Source: a virus. Taken from it: 64,000 bases of DNA. Of this stretch, positions 38,460 to 59,844 are shown in pieces; the first letter of the stretch is position 1; each line of letters starts with the position of its first letter. A program made the position numbers and the translations under genes. Location of the stretch: positions 1-64,000 of the IMG/VR virus record IMGVR_UViG_3300006919_000045; one strand, written 5' to 3'. A model generated the notes under the pieces. It worked only from the letters and a program-made list of their open reading frames with translations. It was not told the DNA's origin and ran no database searches.

Positions 38460-39764
38460 CTAAAAGCCGGTCTGCGATGTCTCAAATGAATACAGTGCGT
38501 ATCGCAAAGCGTCAGCCATGTGAGATGCCATATTATGCCTGGGTTTCTCCCTAGCTAAATTTGGATTTGAGTCCCATTGATACTGATCAAGGCAAGAAAG
38601 TACTTGATCGGATCGTTGATCGACTAGTAGCTTATCGTTATCAACTATAGCGGCTACGTGTGCGATTCCATCTAAAACTGACTTTTTTGCATTTATAGTA
38701 GAAATATCGTAATTCTGTGCGAAGTCAAATCGAGTTTGTTGTGCGGCGGAATCTATATAAATATAATCAATTTCCCACTTATCGATCATTTCTTGTATTT
38801 TAGCGGCATGTTGTTCCGTTGTTTTTTCAGCATCCATGTACTCATCAAGTACATGATACACTTGCTCATCCCAATCATATGCAATTACACAAAAAGCAGT
38901 AGGGTCTCGATAACCTACATCAAGCCCTGCAAATACATCCATACCGCTGGTATCCAACGCTTCGTTATTAGCTATACATATTTCGTGGTTGAAGTTCCAA
39001 ATCTGACCTTCGTAAGTATTAAAGTCTGCTTCATACTCTTGTCTGAATTCAGCATCTGACATACTTTTTCTTGCTTCGGCAATATCAGTCTCGGACATTC
39101 GTGGGTTGTCTATATAAGTTGCACGAATTGAGCACCACTCGGAAAATTCATCGTTAAATCCTCTATCAAAAAACTCTGCAAACCAGTTGTTCCTGCCGCG
39201 AGGCGTCGAGATAAAGATAGCTTTTGAGTTATCCTTATCAAGAGTAGGTCGAAGTGCTACGTTAAATGCGTCACGCCCGTCTGCCAACGCCGCTTCGTCA
39301 AAGATAATTAAATCGTAGCTTCTACCTACACAGGAATCAACTTGGTTTACTGAGCCCATTCTTACTGTCGATCCATTACTCAGTTCGATAACTTTATCCT
39401 TTGCGTTATCTTTTACAACTTCCAAGTCAAAATGTTTTATTAAGTTCCTTTGAAGATCAAAAGAAATCTGAGACAACGCATAGTTAGGAGACATTATAAG
39501 AATGTTTGAATTCGGAACTAGGGAGACTAGTTGGCCGATAATGTTTGCGATATAGGTTTTACCCTGTCGGCGTGATACTGCCGCGCAAACAAAGCGATAT
39601 TTATTATTATTTATCGCATTGATAATTGCTACCTGGGACGGTAGTGGAGTTATGCCGAGCAGCTCTAAATAAGGCTCTACTGGCAGCTTGAGGAAGCGTG
39701 TCTCAGATTGTAAATCGAGCAGAGATTCCCATACTATATCGGCTCTGCTTATTTGTACTGTCAT
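38460..39764 (-). CDS. terL: Terminase large subunit
   Basis: 434 residues. The ATPase part has a Walker-A-like AAVSRRQGKT (about residues 61-70), a Walker B at DLIIFDEAAL (151-160) and the coupling motif FISTPRGRNNWF. The nuclease part has acidic positions in DVFAGLDVGYRDP and YIYIDSAAQQ, as in RNase-H-fold terminase nucleases. It packages DNA into proheads together with the small subunit and portal. Length is usual for the family. Confidence 0.93.
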   Translation of the reverse strand: MTVQISRADIVWESLLDLQSETRFLKLPVEPYLELLGITPLPSQVAIINAINNNKYRFVCAAVSRRQGKTYIANIIGQLVSLVPNSNILIMSPNYALSQISFDLQRNLIKHFDLEVVKDNAKDKVIELSNGSTVRMGSVNQVDSCVGRSYDLIIFDEAALADGRDAFNVALRPTLDKDNSKAIFISTPRGRNNWFAEFFDRGFNDEFSEWCSIRATYIDNPRMSETDIAEARKSMSDAEFRQEYEADFNTYEGQIWNFNHEICIANNEALDTSGMDVFAGLDVGYRDPTAFCVIAYDWDEQVYHVLDEYMDAEKTTEQHAAKIQEMIDKWEIDYIYIDSAAQQTRFDFAQNYDISTINAKKSVLDGIAHVAAIVDNDKLLVDQRSDQVLSCLDQYQWDSNPNLAREKPRHNMASHMADALRYALYSFETSQTGF

Positions 39765-45649: not shown

Positions 45650-46570
45650 TTAACTTCCCAGTGTATGTATCCCTATTATAATTCCCATTGAGGCGGCTAC
45701 ACCTACCATGAGTTTTCCAAAGTCTTTTGCAATTATTGGCATTGACTTTTCCATTGCTCCGATTGCAAGCTCTCTACCACTAAGAAGTCCAATAAATACC
45801 CAAGTTGTTGACATTGGAATACTATTATACTCCTTAAAGTACCAAAGAATAATTAAATAGATAAGATCAATTAGAGTTGCAGATTTTACATAGCTTGTTC
45901 CGGTTTTGGATACAACAACATCTTGTATCTTTCCTCCTCTTTCGTAAAACATCCAACCCATTCCCGCCACAAATAAGGCACTAATACCTACGAGAATAAG
46001 TGCGGGGATTTCTCTAGGAAGAAATACTGCCATGTTTGCCATATCATGACTTAACCATGTCCACCACAACCAACCTGTTACAGTCCATTGCGCAATTCTC
46101 CAGTTTTTCTCTGAGCCTCTTATTTCTATATTTGAAAGAGCTTTTGTAACAAATGTCCAAATTACAAAGGCACTAGCAAAAGCAACTCCGTATCCTGCAA
46201 AAGATTTTATAAGCATCTTTTCCAAAATAAAAGTTGAAGCAAAGGCACTGAGAACAAGAAAAGAAGTACTTACAGGCACTCCAAATCTTGTTAAAGCAAG
46301 AAGAACTGCGGGAGCGGCAGCGTGATACCACTGCGGTTCTATGTAAGGTATTTTATCTAGTCTACCATAGGAAATATCCCCATGCACTCCAAATCCATAC
46401 CAGATGGCAAAAAGAAGTACACTACTTGCAGCGCCCCAAAGAATTTTCCAATCTATTTCTTTATTGGAAGCCATCCAAGTGCCGAGAGTTTGAATACTAT
46501 CATTTGCGATTACTGTGTAACTTGCTAAGCTGAAACCTAGCACAGTCCACAAAAGTGTCATCATATCCAT
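45650..46570 (-). CDS. Pho4/Pit-like inner-membrane permease, putative phosphate transporter
   Basis: 306 residues, about eight hydrophobic segments. Two internal repeats match the signature of Pit/Pho4 phosphate permeases: IANDSIQTLGT and SHDMANMAVF in place of GANDVANA, and VPVSTSFLVLSAF and IPMSTTWVFIGLLSG in place of PVSTTHAIVGA. The family moves inorganic phosphate with H+ or Na+. The match is by eye and the loop residues deviate, so the substrate is uncertain. It follows an outer-membrane barrel gene with a one-base overlap, forming a two-gene operon closed by a terminator. Confidence 0.6.
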   Translation of the reverse strand: MDMMTLLWTVLGFSLASYTVIANDSIQTLGTWMASNKEIDWKILWGAASSVLLFAIWYGFGVHGDISYGRLDKIPYIEPQWYHAAAPAVLLALTRFGVPVSTSFLVLSAFASTFILEKMLIKSFAGYGVAFASAFVIWTFVTKALSNIEIRGSEKNWRIAQWTVTGWLWWTWLSHDMANMAVFLPREIPALILVGISALFVAGMGWMFYERGGKIQDVVVSKTGTSYVKSATLIDLIYLIILWYFKEYNSIPMSTTWVFIGLLSGRELAIGAMEKSMPIIAKDFGKLMVGVAASMGIIIGIHTLGS

Positions 46571-48990: not shown

Positions 48991-49094
48991 GAGCGGGGGC
49001 GCTGATAGCTGGCGCATACCTTGTTTATTCCGTCGTCACTGATCTGGCGATCTGGGGCGGCGCGGTTTACTATTATTTCAATGGGGGCTTTTGA
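48987..49094 (+). CDS. 35-residue membrane peptide
   Basis: GTG start overlapping the upstream stop (GTGA) and TGA overlapping the next ATG (TGATG). The product has a helix ALIAGAYLVYSVVTDLAIW and an aromatic tail. The perfect coupling on both sides supports a real gene. Function unknown. Confidence 0.5.
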   Translation: MRAGALIAGAYLVYSVVTDLAIWGGAVYYYFNGGF

Positions 49095-49693
49095 TGAAAG
49101 CACTACAAGCGAAACTCAACCGGCTCGCGGAGAATCTCTCCGCTCCGGTGGCGGTAATTTTAGAGGGGCGTGATACTGCTGGCAAATCCTCGACTATTCG
49201 GGAATTGACTCACTACCTACCGCCCGACCTTTACAGCGTTTGCCTATCGCACAAACCTAGCAAACGCGCAATGGCGGCATGGCTACCCTACTGGGAAACC
49301 AAACTACCAACGCAACCGCGCATCGTGTTTTTTGATCGAAGCTGGTACAGCCGCGCGATGGTTCAACATCTCAACGGATGGTGTACGCCGCGACAATACA
49401 ACAATTTTATGCGGCGTCATAAAAACTGGGAAGCTAATCAGCCGGTGCGCTTGATTAAATTTTGGCTTTCGATTTCGGAACAGGAACAGCAACGCCGAAT
49501 AATTCAACGCAAGCATTCACCGCTCACCTACTGGAAATTTTCGGAGAATGATGAAAACGCACTTTCGCATTATGACCGCATGAGCATTTTAAAAGAGCGC
49601 GTTATTGATTCGGAATGGCACACAATTAATTTCGAAAATAAATCAAAAGGAATTAAAAAATTGCTTGACAAATTATGCGGCGAGCTGGCATAA
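49094..49693 (+). CDS. Polyphosphate kinase 2 family protein
   Basis: 199 residues. PPK2 landmarks are all present: Walker A EGRDTAGKSSTI (24-35), Walker B region VFFDRSWYSRAMV (78-90), the lid Arg pair in ISEQEQQRRI (127-136) and the YWKFSENDENAL segment (146-157). The family transfers phosphate between polyphosphate and nucleotides (class-dependent ADP/GDP or AMP). The chain is short for PPK2 (usually 230-300 residues), mainly at the N-terminus. It sits in the GC-rich island after a HAD-like gene. The direction of the reaction and substrate class cannot be told from sequence. Confidence 0.85.
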   Translation: MKALQAKLNRLAENLSAPVAVILEGRDTAGKSSTIRELTHYLPPDLYSVCLSHKPSKRAMAAWLPYWETKLPTQPRIVFFDRSWYSRAMVQHLNGWCTPRQYNNFMRRHKNWEANQPVRLIKFWLSISEQEQQRRIIQRKHSPLTYWKFSENDENALSHYDRMSILKERVIDSEWHTINFENKSKGIKKLLDKLCGELA

Positions 49694-52534: not shown

Positions 52535-52715
52535 AGAAAGTGCAGAAGCAATAGTATTTTGTATAAGTAGCTTTTGTACTCATGAAGCTGACCTTAAAAA
52601 ATTCGAACCTAAACTTCACATGAACAGTGATGGGTTAGTCTTGGAATATAATGATAAGAGTACAGGACACAAAATGTTTGAAAAAATTTCTGGGCTGAAG
52701 AAAAATAATTCTTGA
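52524..52715 (+). CDS. Small protein (63 aa), GTG start
   Basis: GTG at 52524 gives ELKESAEAIVFCISSFCTHE; other in-frame starts would lengthen the overlap with the previous gene. Ends GLKKNNS just before the strong promoter of the structured RNA. Unknown. Confidence 0.45.
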   Translation: MELKESAEAIVFCISSFCTHEADLKKFEPKLHMNSDGLVLEYNDKSTGHKMFEKISGLKKNNS

Positions 52716-52741
52716 CTTTTAGTTCAAAAACGGAGTATAAT
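52712..52741 (+). promoter_or_regulatory. Promoter of the large structured RNA
   Basis: TTGACT (52712-52717), 18 bases, TATAAT (52736-52741). No gene with a ribosome site follows; the next feature is the structured non-coding stretch. Confidence 0.75.
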
Positions 52742-52747
52742 ATCTTC

Positions 52748-53429
52748 TTAAATGGGGGAAGTCAGGGACGCACAGTACGCCACCGCACTTGCGATAAGAC
52801 AGTAAAGATCCCGGTAAAAGTTAAGCCTATCCGGAGCCCCGACCTAATTTGTTCCGCCTTCGTTGACCCTGCCGTGTACAGGTTGAAAGGCATCGTCCGT
52901 GGGACAAAAGTGCTAATGCGGGATGGCAAAGCACTATAAAAAGTACCATCTTAGTTTAGTGCCACTTAGCGCACTTTTCCCTGTTCGAGGTACTATATCG
53001 AGCCCCCATGTGTACGGGCGGAGGTGCACGACCAGTTATGGCTTTGACACGTTTTCGGATTCTGGTTTAGCAAAAACGAAAAAGAGGTAGGTTGCATCTG
53101 CAGTGCTAACCTAGATACGTGATAGGAGGTAGGTGCGTATCACTACAACTATAGGAGGAAGTCCTTTTTATTATTGGTCTATTATTGCAAAGAGGCGTCG
53201 AAACCCTCGATCATAACGAAAGGCACTATATAGCCTAGTGGCAGTTCGCGGCTTTAAACCTAACTGCGGGTTTATCTACTCAGACCCGCTAACGCTAAGG
53301 GAGTAGGCAACTGACGAGTTGGACAATACGTAGATTTACTCAGTAGCTGCTTGGGAGTCATGCCCCAATGTAGACCTAACAAACGGTAATCGAAGGAATC
53401 CCTGCATAGAAATATGTGGGGATTTTTTT
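52748..53429 (+). ncRNA. Large structured phage RNA candidate, about 680 nt
   Basis: Bounded by a strong promoter and an intrinsic terminator, with no credible ORF in any frame. Stems found by eye: 52895-52898/52902-52905, 52909-52913/52931-52935, 52942-52947/52989-52994 enclosing 52958-52962/52971-52975, 53010-53015/53024-53029, 53088-53096/53104-53113, 53119-53124/53138-53143, 53224-53228/53236-53240, 53308-53312/53317-53321, 53351-53355/53364-53368. Two crossing pairs give pseudoknots: 53031-53035/53062-53066 with 53050-53055/53073-53078, and loop CTACTC 53276-53281 with GAGTAG 53301-53306. Size and setting recall giant phage RNAs such as GOLLD or ROOL, but I cannot assign it to either. 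Confidence 0.7.
53397..53429 (+). terminator. Terminator of the structured RNA
   Basis: AATCCCTGCAT pairs with ATGTGGGGATT (two G-U pairs) around the loop AGAAAT, followed by TTTTT. Confidence 0.85.
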
Positions 53430-53449
53430 ATGTGTACAAAAAATTTTCC

Positions 53450-53994: not shown

Positions 53995-54310
53995 TTATTC
54001 GGAGAACGAAACGACTTATATGGTGCAACTGTACCAGGAAACCCCGTGCATGGCTACGGTGGATTTGCTCGTGGAACAATTAAAAAGAAGTAAGAAATCG
54101 ATTATAGGAAAGCTATCACGAGAAGGTGTATACCGAAGGGAGGTGTATGTATCGAAAACTGGAGAGAAACCTATTACAAAAGTGGAAATCGTTTCTCATA
54201 TTGCTGAAGGTTTGGGAGTTGAGGTTTCAGATCTGGCTGGTCTTGAGAAAGCTCCCAAAAACGTCCTTCGAATCCTATCAAAAGCTGCAGCGGGGTCAGC
54301 AATCTCCTAA
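53987..54310 (+). CDS. HTH-like small regulator, paralogue 3
   Basis: 107 residues from the ATG at 53987. It shares the layout of paralogue 2: YMVQLYQETPCMATVDLLVE, then KRSKKSIIGKLSREGVYRR, the linker TGEKPITKVEIV and a C-terminal helical domain (HIAEGLGVEVSDL). It ends just before the second structured RNA segment. Confidence 0.65.
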   Translation: MSNYSENETTYMVQLYQETPCMATVDLLVEQLKRSKKSIIGKLSREGVYRREVYVSKTGEKPITKVEIVSHIAEGLGVEVSDLAGLEKAPKNVLRILSKAAAGSAIS

Positions 54311-54805
54311 TGACTAGGGGACAATTCTCGTATATTAGTAGGCTAGCGGAATAAATAAGGGAAAATTTACGAACGAATTGGCGCAAATTTTGAACAGTTG
54401 TTCGCAAATTTAAAAAAGATTTTTACTTAAAGTATTCGTTTGGGTCGTATGACCCGTATTATTCTTATTTAATTATCAGGGTCATAGAGATTGGTACAAT
54501 TCACACTTTGCTTTTACGAATGTAGTAGCGGGTTAGTTGCTGACTTAGCATATCTTGTAGACACCCCGTGTATATACCCTGCTCCCGCTAAGGCTCTGCA
54601 GGGTATTTATGCACGAAATAGCTACATTATGCTTACGTCAGCATGTAGTTAGTGAGAATCAGTAGACAGACCTTATTGTCTATCAATTTATGATATATTT
54701 TACCACACTTTTTGGCATATAGCAAATACTATTTTTGCCCTGGTCCTGGATTACAGTATCTGAGCAGTGTGAAGTTAACAAAAAAATATTATTTTGGAGG
54801 GTTAG
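54311..54805 (+). ncRNA. Second structured non-coding segment
   Basis: 495 bases with no credible gene. Pairings by eye: GGGTC 54442-54446/GACCC 54451-54455; ATACCCTGC 54574-54582/GCAGGGTAT 54598-54606; ACAC 54561-54564/GTGT 54568-54571; CTAC...ATGCT 54622-54633/AGCATGTAG 54640-54648; TAGACA 54663-54668/TGTCTA 54677-54682. The loop CCCGCTA (54584-54590) is a perfect 7-base match to TAGCGGG (54526-54532), crossing the 9-bp stem: a pseudoknot. No clear own promoter, so it may be the 3' part of the transcript starting at 53480. Core about 54440-54685. Confidence 0.5.
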
Positions 54806-54889
54806 GTGGAAGACTATTTGTGGGTAGTAATTGGTTGTATGATTTTAGCAACAGTAAGTAAAGGATGTATTCCTGAAGGTATTATGTAA
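54806..54889 (+). CDS. 27-residue membrane peptide
   Basis: GTG start five bases after GGAGG. The product (EDYLWVVIGCMILATVSKGC) has a single hydrophobic helix. Strong ribosome site but very short. Confidence 0.4.
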   Translation: MEDYLWVVIGCMILATVSKGCIPEGIM

Positions 54890-54920
54890 CATCACAGCAG
54901 TAAGAGCATTCGCATAAAAC

Positions 54921-54946
54921 TAAAGGGGCTTCAAGGCCCCTTTTTT
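54921..54946. terminator. Bidirectional terminator between convergent units
   Basis: AAGGGGC-TTCAA-GGCCCCTT stem followed by TTTTTT on the plus strand and TTTAG on the minus strand. It separates the plus-strand unit from the minus-strand bS21/MazG cassette. Confidence 0.8.
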
Positions 54947-55136
54947 ATATGACGTACAAATGGAGGGCATTTCGCAAGTATAGGAATATAGAAAGTGTAG
55001 GTAGTGCTATCCCGAGTATCATGATAATTTTTATACACGCAAACTCCAGTGGAGACAACTGAATTTCGATGGTTGTAGATTCCCGTTGCTCCTTCGAGAA
55101 CGAGGTAAAGCCAAAGAACTTCCAAAGGTCTCTCAC
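54945..55136 (-). CDS. Small membrane protein (63 aa)
   Basis: GTG start overlapping the upstream TGA (GTGA). One helix (ACIKIIMILGIALPTLSIFLY). It is the last gene of the minus-strand cassette, ending in the terminator hairpin. Unknown. Confidence 0.5.
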   Translation of the reverse strand: MRDLWKFFGFTSFSKEQRESTTIEIQLSPLEFACIKIIMILGIALPTLSIFLYLRNALHLYVI

Positions 55137-57677: not shown

Positions 57678-57825
57678 AGGATACTTTGAACATTTGTCAG
57701 GCGCCTGGAAATTAGCATTTGTATTGCTAGTACACGGGCTTCTACCAAATGTATGGAGAAACAAAGTCAGCGACGAACTGCACAAAGATCAAAAGAAGCT
57801 GCATGGAGTACGAGTCGTTGACTAA
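57652..57825 (+). CDS. DUF6356-like small protein (57 aa)
   Basis: The product NHLKETGKGYFEHLSGAWKL, then AFVLLVHGLLPNVW, matches a small conserved protein I recall as DUF6356 in marine phages and bacteria. One membrane-associated helix. It overlaps the alternative oxidase gene by 23 bases. Function unknown. Confidence 0.55.
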   Translation: MNHLKETGKGYFEHLSGAWKLAFVLLVHGLLPNVWRNKVSDELHKDQKKLHGVRVVD

Positions 57826-58390
57826 TTATTTTGCAAAGTCGATGACAAAGTTTTTTCGTTTCTTTGCAGATACATTCTTTGCAAAGAGATACGGACACCG
57901 AGCAGTCGTACTTGAAACAGTTGCAGGAGTCCCAGGTATGGTCGCAGGAATGCTTGTACACCTCAAGAGCTTGAGAACACACAAGCGAGGCTATGGCCCC
58001 ATCATACGAAAATTACTTGCAGAAGCAGAAAATGAACGTATGCATCTTATGTTTTTTATCGAAATTGCACAGCCAAATAAGCTGGAGCGGGGTCTCATAA
58101 TTACCGCACAATTTATATTCTGGCACTTTTATTTAGTACTGTACCTAATCTCTCCTCGTACTGCCCATATGATGACGCATTATTTTGAAGAGGAAGCAGT
58201 CAAAAGTTATACAGAATACTTAGATTTAATTTATAGAGAGGAGATAGAAGATGTTCCTGCTCCTCAGTTAGCAATCGAATACTATGGTATGGACGCAGAT
58301 GCACGACTTTCTACGATGGTAAAACACATTCGTGCTGATGAACAAAATCACAGCAAAGTAAACTTGGAGTATGCAAATGTACTCAGATAA
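57803..58390 (+). CDS. Alternative oxidase (ubiquinol terminal oxidase)
   Basis: 195 residues. All four di-iron motifs are present: LETVAGVPGM (E38), NERMHL (E78, H81), the EEEA box (E129-E131) and RADEQNH (E180, H183). Two membrane-associated helices (39-55 and 97-117) lie between them. The family takes electrons from quinol straight to oxygen without pumping protons. It is compact compared with plant enzymes. An alternative start at Met14 is possible. It is followed by IscU with a 14-base overlap. In cyanophages a related PTOX is known. Confidence 0.88.
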   Translation: MEYESLTNYFAKSMTKFFRFFADTFFAKRYGHRAVVLETVAGVPGMVAGMLVHLKSLRTHKRGYGPIIRKLLAEAENERMHLMFFIEIAQPNKLERGLIITAQFIFWHFYLVLYLISPRTAHMMTHYFEEEAVKSYTEYLDLIYREEIEDVPAPQLAIEYYGMDADARLSTMVKHIRADEQNHSKVNLEYANVLR

Positions 58391-58778
58391 GGTATTGGAT
58401 CACTATGAAAATCCCAGAAATGTCGGAAAACTTAACGAGAATGATAAAGATGTCGGAACAGGCATGGTCGGGGCTCCAGCGTGTGGAGACGTCATGCGGC
58501 TTCAAATCCGAGTATCGCCCGACGGAATTATTGAAGATGCTAAATTCAAAACTTACGGATGCGGCAGTGCTATTGCTTCTTCATCATTACTCACAGAATG
58601 GGTTCGAGGAAAGTCCCTTGACGAAGCGGGAAAAATCAGCAATGTCCAAATTGCTCAAGACTTATCGCTCCCGCCTGTAAAGATACACTGTAGTGTACTT
58701 GCGGAAGATGCTATCAAAGCAGCCATCACGGATTATAGGACTAAACATGAAAGGAACTACCATGAAAAACAGAACTAA
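58377..58778 (+). CDS. iscU: IscU iron-sulfur scaffold
   Basis: 133 residues. It opens MYSDKVLDHYENPRNVG, the family signature. The three cluster Cys are C36 (APACGD, with Asp38), C62 (YGCGSA) and C105 (IHCSVLAEDA), and LPPVKIHC is the HscA-recognition motif. The start at 58377 is chosen to match the family; an ATG two codons earlier is possible. It overlaps both the oxidase and the porin gene. No iscS is present, so it would depend on the host sulfur donor. Confidence 0.9.
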   Translation: MYSDKVLDHYENPRNVGKLNENDKDVGTGMVGAPACGDVMRLQIRVSPDGIIEDAKFKTYGCGSAIASSSLLTEWVRGKSLDEAGKISNVQIAQDLSLPPVKIHCSVLAEDAIKAAITDYRTKHERNYHEKQN

Positions 58779-59490: not shown

Positions 59491-59844
59491 ATGAATGAGT
59501 ATTATATCGAGCCTTATGATTCAATGCTACAAGTAACTCATAATGCCGCAAATTGGATGCACGAACAACTTTCTAAAAGAGGAAAGGGTAGAGGTATACG
59601 ATTAGGAGTTGCACCTGCGGGATGTACGGGATATAAATATATAGTCGAATTTGTAGATCAAGAGAACGAAGAAGATTATATAGTACAAAAGAAAGGATTA
59701 CTTTTCTTTATAGATCCTAAAAGCAGGCCCGTACTACAAGGTTCTGTAGTAGAGTTTAAAACTGAAGGTATGAACTCTGGAATAGAGATTATAAATCCCA
59801 ATACACAAGATAAGTGTGGATGTGGTGAGAGCTTTAATATATAA
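59491..59844 (+). CDS. iscA: A-type iron-sulfur carrier (IscA/HesB)
   Basis: 117 residues. The three conserved Cys are C45 (PAGCTGYKY), C109 and C111 (KCGCGESF). GIRLGVAPAGCTGYKY and FFIDPKSRPVLQGS follow the family closely. It carries Fe-S clusters or iron to client proteins. It is split from iscU by the porin gene, supporting insertion of the porin into an iscU-iscA unit. Confidence 0.9.
   Translation: MNEYYIEPYDSMLQVTHNAANWMHEQLSKRGKGRGIRLGVAPAGCTGYKYIVEFVDQENEEDYIVQKKGLLFFIDPKSRPVLQGSVVEFKTEGMNSGIEIINPNTQDKCGCGESFNI

Follow-up and report, generated by a model that had tools for sequence, protein, structure and literature searches.

To our knowledge, few large ornate RNAs have been described, and the function of OLE is still poorly understood. 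ROOL (Rumen-Originating, Ornate, Large) is encoded by phages and prophages, with phage genes often lying near tRNA islands; a 659-nt example has been solved and contains pseudoknots, and the RNA forms an RNA-only octameric nanocage (PMC12286853). GOLLD, another phage and prophage RNA, joins a conserved to a less conserved region, has a linker able to hold tRNAs, forms a 14-mer nanocage and rises in expression at lysis (PMC12286853). The functions of both are described in the same account as poorly understood, and both as building RNA-only cages (PMC12286853).

We analysed positions 1 to 64,000 of IMG/VR virus record IMGVR_UViG_3300006919_000045 (hereafter the window), in which an earlier note had proposed a structured non-coding RNA of large size, flanked by a promoter and a terminator of its own. 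Fold, homologues and the absence of codon conservation bear the proposal out at the level of sequence, and the locus very probably encodes a real, conserved, structured phage RNA of a family without an Rfam entry. As judged from sequence, it has the attributes of the large ornate phage ncRNAs: a length above 400 nt, a conserved complex fold, carriage by phages and a predicted transcription unit of its own. By analogy, the known RNAs that it most resembles are ROOL and GOLLD, both large, structured and phage-encoded, and it matched neither. Like ROOL, it is phage-encoded, of similar size (659 nt in ROOL) and highly structured, with pseudoknot(s) that are here predicted from sequence (PMC12286853), whereas it has no Rfam ROOL match and no tRNA island beside it, and its 3' cassettes are not mentioned in the parts of the ROOL description in PMC12286853 drawn on here. 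Like GOLLD, it is a large phage RNA that mixes conserved and less conserved regions (PMC12286853), but its predicted length is ~430–680 nt against often >800 nt for GOLLD, it has no Rfam match, and both its 5' and 3' domains are conserved, with the variation in the middle and the tail.

The Rfam search that the earlier note had recommended (GOLLD, ROOL, tmRNA, introns) gave no match at gathering scores over the whole window (Rfam 15). The ROOL and GOLLD covariance models had none in the window or in the divergent homologues L103 and L110, in agreement with the note's own failure to place the RNA in either class, and permissive E-values in these three sequences returned sub-threshold matches only, none of them credible; those to ncr1575 and NsiR1 reached about half their gathering scores, at the terminator end, and were rejected. 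The group I and group II intron models likewise found no match, an ordinary intron being a result that the note had held to be fatal to its reading; the RNA lies between a promoter and a terminator of its own, and no gene was seen to be interrupted by it. No tRNA was detected in the window or the homologous loci, and in the window ARAGORN and Rfam found no tRNA-like domain or tag frame of a one- or two-piece tmRNA.

Table 1. Features of the RNA locus and of related loci (window positions unless a locus is named).
Feature	Position	Strand	Basis or remark
Promoter, −35 TTGACT, 18-nt spacer, −10 TATAAT	52712–52741	+	11/12 consensus
TTCTTGAC-N18..24-TATAAT copies	52709, 55951, 62798, 63945	+	pattern scan of window
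Predicted whole transcript, ~680 nt	52748–53430	+	sequence, homologues, no Rfam match
Conserved 5' domain (P1, P2 GUC/GAC, further stems)	52753–52840	+	81–97% identical to homologues
P1	52755–52758/52837–52840	+	5' domain
Variable middle, P6–P9	52841–53029	+	re-pairing of helix arms
Possible pseudoknot GUGC/GCAC	52910–52913/52931–52934	+	variable middle
P6	52921–52926/52946–52952	+	variable middle
P7	52958–52962/52971–52975	+	variable middle
P8	52985–52988/52998–53001	+	UCGA/UCGA becomes AGCCGA/UCGGCU in homologue
P9	53010–53015/53024–53029	+	variable middle
Conserved 3' domain (P11, P12, P13, tail AACUAUAGGAGG)	53030–53158	+	alifold, pairing counts
Conserved pseudoknot, UUUUCG (P11 loop)/CGAAAA	53052–53057/53077–53082	+	pair-keeping changes
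P12	53088–53113	+	3' domain
P13	53114–53141	+	3' domain
Cassette 1: P16 UGGUC/GAUCA on P17 GAGG/CCUC, invariant loop CGUCGAAA	53159–53224	+	10/13 sequences
Cassette 2: two possible hairpins, CACUA/UAGUG and CAGUU/AACUG	53225–53266	+	also in L002/L003, L099, L100, L103, L110
Cassette 3: 130-nt insert	53267–53396	+	this phage only
CTACTC/GAGTAG	53276–53281/53301–53306	+	within cassette 3
Intrinsic terminator, hairpin AATCCCTGCATAGAAATATGTGGGGATTTTTTTATG and T-run	53397–53430 (AATCCCTGCATAGAAATATGTGGGGATTTTTTTATG, 53397–53432)	+	sequence; same in most homologues
Permuted tmRNA of relatives	L103:13310–13736, L104:4516–4934, L110:5273–5694, L113:5561–5993, L115:8490–8911		ARAGORN/Rfam

The predicted RNA consists of a conserved core of ~400 nt and zero to three 3' cassettes, followed by a terminator (Table 1). 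The strong promoter and the clear intrinsic terminator that the earlier note had described both hold up: a promoter of the same kind also stands 5' of the RNA in homologues, and the terminator hairpin is real and identical across 36–39 nt in most of them. The terminator is missing from the list of a simple scan, probably as a result of that scan's stem and loop limits. From these signals we infer a transcript that would begin 7 nt past the −10 box and end in the T-run. The promoter-like motif TTCTTGAC-N18..24-TATAAT occurs four times in the window against 0.02 expected; all copies lie in the early region and read along the + strand. Between promoter and terminator (~680 nt) no credible ORF is present, as had been claimed; the longest stop-free stretches switch frame from homologue to homologue, and single-base indels already appear in L003, which is 94% identical to the window RNA. 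Conserved codons, named beforehand as evidence that would overturn the proposal, are not seen in the homologues, where substitutions preserve structure instead. Across homologues the predicted length ranges from ~430 to 680 nt because of the 3' cassettes and the variable middle.

The same RNA, flanked by a promoter and terminator of like kind, was found in 14 IMG/VR contigs, through neighbouring proteins and through short exact patterns taken from the RNA. Two contig pairs look identical over the RNA, and the distinct sequences (n = 13, window included) fall in two main clades. Three loci were reached via neighbouring proteins rather than via the RNA, and all three carry it. Covariance models searched against 755 kb of phage DNA gave matches at RNA loci only. 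There was no match in annotated phage records (window and L103 versions as queries), in plasmid records (window core as query) or, for a 3'-domain covariance model under stricter filters, in 399 Pseudomonadota genomes. Further pattern scans found no distant relatives; such scans require exact matches to conserved stretches and may have missed more distant ones. Twenty-two pattern matches in genome contigs were rejected, being the number expected by chance and lying in surroundings without credible similarity to the RNA, and a Vibrio phage match to cassette 1 (E 3–9, 36 bases between two annotated genes) was also taken as chance. The record G002, with an identical terminase, stops before the RNA locus and is uninformative.

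Folded singly, the RNA is no better than its shuffles (z −0.18; core, z +1.6), and for that reason the eleven or more stems that had been drawn from the one sequence are not evidence by themselves; the alignment, by contrast, supports conserved helices. RNAalifold consensus energies were compared with those of alignments carrying the same substitutions at random columns on the same tree. Under this phylogenetic null the core reached z −7.7 (0/60), the 3' domain z −6.9 (0/200), the 5' domain z −3.7 (0/200) and cassette 1 z −3.4 (1/200), while the variable middle, where the alignment is poor, reached only z −1.7 (10/200). In the 3' domain, pseudoknot included, 95.8% of cells are paired (at most 52% with partners slid) and 10 of 28 pairs show double changes, and in the 5' domain 96.5% of cells are paired with double changes in 6 of 21; both structures owe something to the very alignments on which they are scored, a circumstance in their favour. 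Within the variable middle, helix arms are re-paired by other letters in 3–7 variants per helix, the arms having been picked by eye, a choice that leans towards structure. On the covariation check of homologues that the earlier note had advised, an all-pairs test after R-scape's idea found no base pair at E 0.05, the 13 sequences in two main clades leaving it without power and limiting what can be claimed for single pairs. Over the alignment as a whole, pair-keeping changes support several predicted helices and one pseudoknot.

This pseudoknot, in the 3' domain, reads GUUUCG/CGAAAC in L101 and L108, UUUCU/AGAAA in L106 and UUUGU/ACAAA in L103, L110, L113 and L115; 89.6% of its cells pair in a MAFFT alignment, which shifts one gap. 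The earlier claim of pseudoknots stands for one that covaries, but not for the one it had named. The pairing CTACTC/GAGTAG, put forward as the clearest, is present as described but has no comparative support, because the 130-nt insert that holds it is absent from every homologue. For a possible palindromic kissing loop (UGUACA, with UGGCCA as the L098 form) the support is a single change, and we make no claim for it.

Comparison of the loci shows that the 3' end of the predicted RNA is built from exchangeable cassettes, the homologues differing by whole modules past AACUAUAGGAGG. L115 and L112 have no cassette, the core being followed directly by the terminator, and L104 and L108 carry a GAACU/AGUUC element at this position. 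Cassette 1 is found in L101, L098 and L106, and with a short rest in L113; cassettes 1 and 2 occur together in the homologues listed for cassette 2 in Table 1, and the window has both plus the third, of 130 nt. With arms again picked by eye, P16 of cassette 1 is replaced by ACAGUC/GACUGU in L106 and by AAGUAGC/GCUACUU in L103. Cassette 3 had no other match in homologous loci or phage records, and its fold gave z −1.3. Between the window and L103, a 48-nt block (53219–53266) is 98% identical, against 51% in the core middle and 54% in cassette 1; either recombinational exchange or strong constraint would explain such a block across divergent cores.

Several neighbouring features were also recorded. 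Permuted two-piece tmRNAs, absent from the window, lie 2–5 kb downstream of the RNA in five homologous loci, with the tags ANDDIYALAA, ANDDIYQLAA and ANDDVYTLAA. This marine-phage RNA gene shares the early region of relatives with the RNA described here but is a separate gene, and the latter has neither a tag frame nor a tRNA-like match. In several relatives the tmRNA is of the alphaproteobacterial type, which is also present in permuted form in some marine phages (PMC9004378), and because of this type an alphaproteobacterial host is plausible. The terminase large subunit (window 38460–39764, − strand) is ~51% identical to those of T5-like Vibrio phages; despite this similarity, the largest records seen of this phage group are 72–101 kb. 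Metabolic genes possibly derived from a host, recognised by eye, resemble a PiT phosphate permease (45650–46570), PPK2 (49091–49693), alternative oxidase (57749–58390; a single 59%-identical relative among phage records), IscU (58371–58778) and ErpA (59491–59844). A second long gap (54310–54950) contains a conserved non-coding segment (54646–54744, ~80–87% identical in relatives) and what may be a membrane peptide of 28 aa, starting at a GTG (54806–54889), similar in L003 and L104 and followed by the terminator hairpin GGGGCTTCAAGGCCCC.

As a working model, the likeliest of those weighed here but held tentatively and by analogy with ROOL and GOLLD, the RNA would act in trans as a folded scaffold, RNA-only or with protein. 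Host sigma-70 RNA polymerase would make it early in infection, and the core would fold up as a compact scaffold, adapted by accessory hairpins in the form of the cassettes. Possible, if doubtful, is a trans-acting regulator or decoy that binds a host protein (RNA polymerase, a CsrA-like protein or an RNase) or pairs with host RNA, with the cassettes as targeting hairpins. Conserved motifs outside helices and the exchangeability of the hairpins would suit such a role, as would two copies of AGGAGG against 0.28 expected, the remaining GGA-type counts being near expectation; however, L106, L113 and L115 have lost the AGGAGG that follows the core, antisense complementarity to the window scores 26.8 bits where shuffles reach 32.6 and so is at chance level, and the same holds for the occurrences in 200 Pseudomonadota genomes of a cassette-2 14-mer (2 genomes) and a core 15-mer (none). 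Rather unlikely is a small-RNA carrier, in which processing would free the 3' cassettes and terminator as sRNAs from a stabilising leader, the core. The cassettes do vary independently of the core and adjoin the terminator, and cassette 2 hardly differs between divergent phages, but L115 keeps the core without any cassette, and more of the phages share the core than share the cassettes. We regard a distant, unrecognised member of ROOL, GOLLD or OLE as improbable: size, phage setting, pseudoknot and the division into conserved and variable regions are alike in the account of PMC12286853, yet three divergent representatives gave no Rfam 15 match to these classes at permissive E-values. A DNA element, such as a replication origin or recombination site with incidental transcription, is very improbable, since modules exchanged at one position of a non-coding gap in a compact genome would fit it, but pair-keeping changes that allow G-U and a strand-specific promoter and terminator would not. 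An encoded short protein is scarcely credible, given that stop-free stretches of up to 115 codons in single homologues change frame between homologues, meet indels that are not multiples of three and are missing in alternative cassettes.

We advance a further view of the family with similar reserve: it may form a novel class among the large phage RNAs, with a fixed folded core and exchangeable 3' cassettes, which phages would reprogram by swapping modules before the terminator. The TTCTTGAC-N18..24-TATAAT promoter family offers a handle for mapping early transcription. The shorter versions (~430–480 nt) fit cryo-EM and probing, and since natural versions of this phage RNA family range from cassette-free to three cassettes, the essential part could be compared directly with the role of the add-ons.
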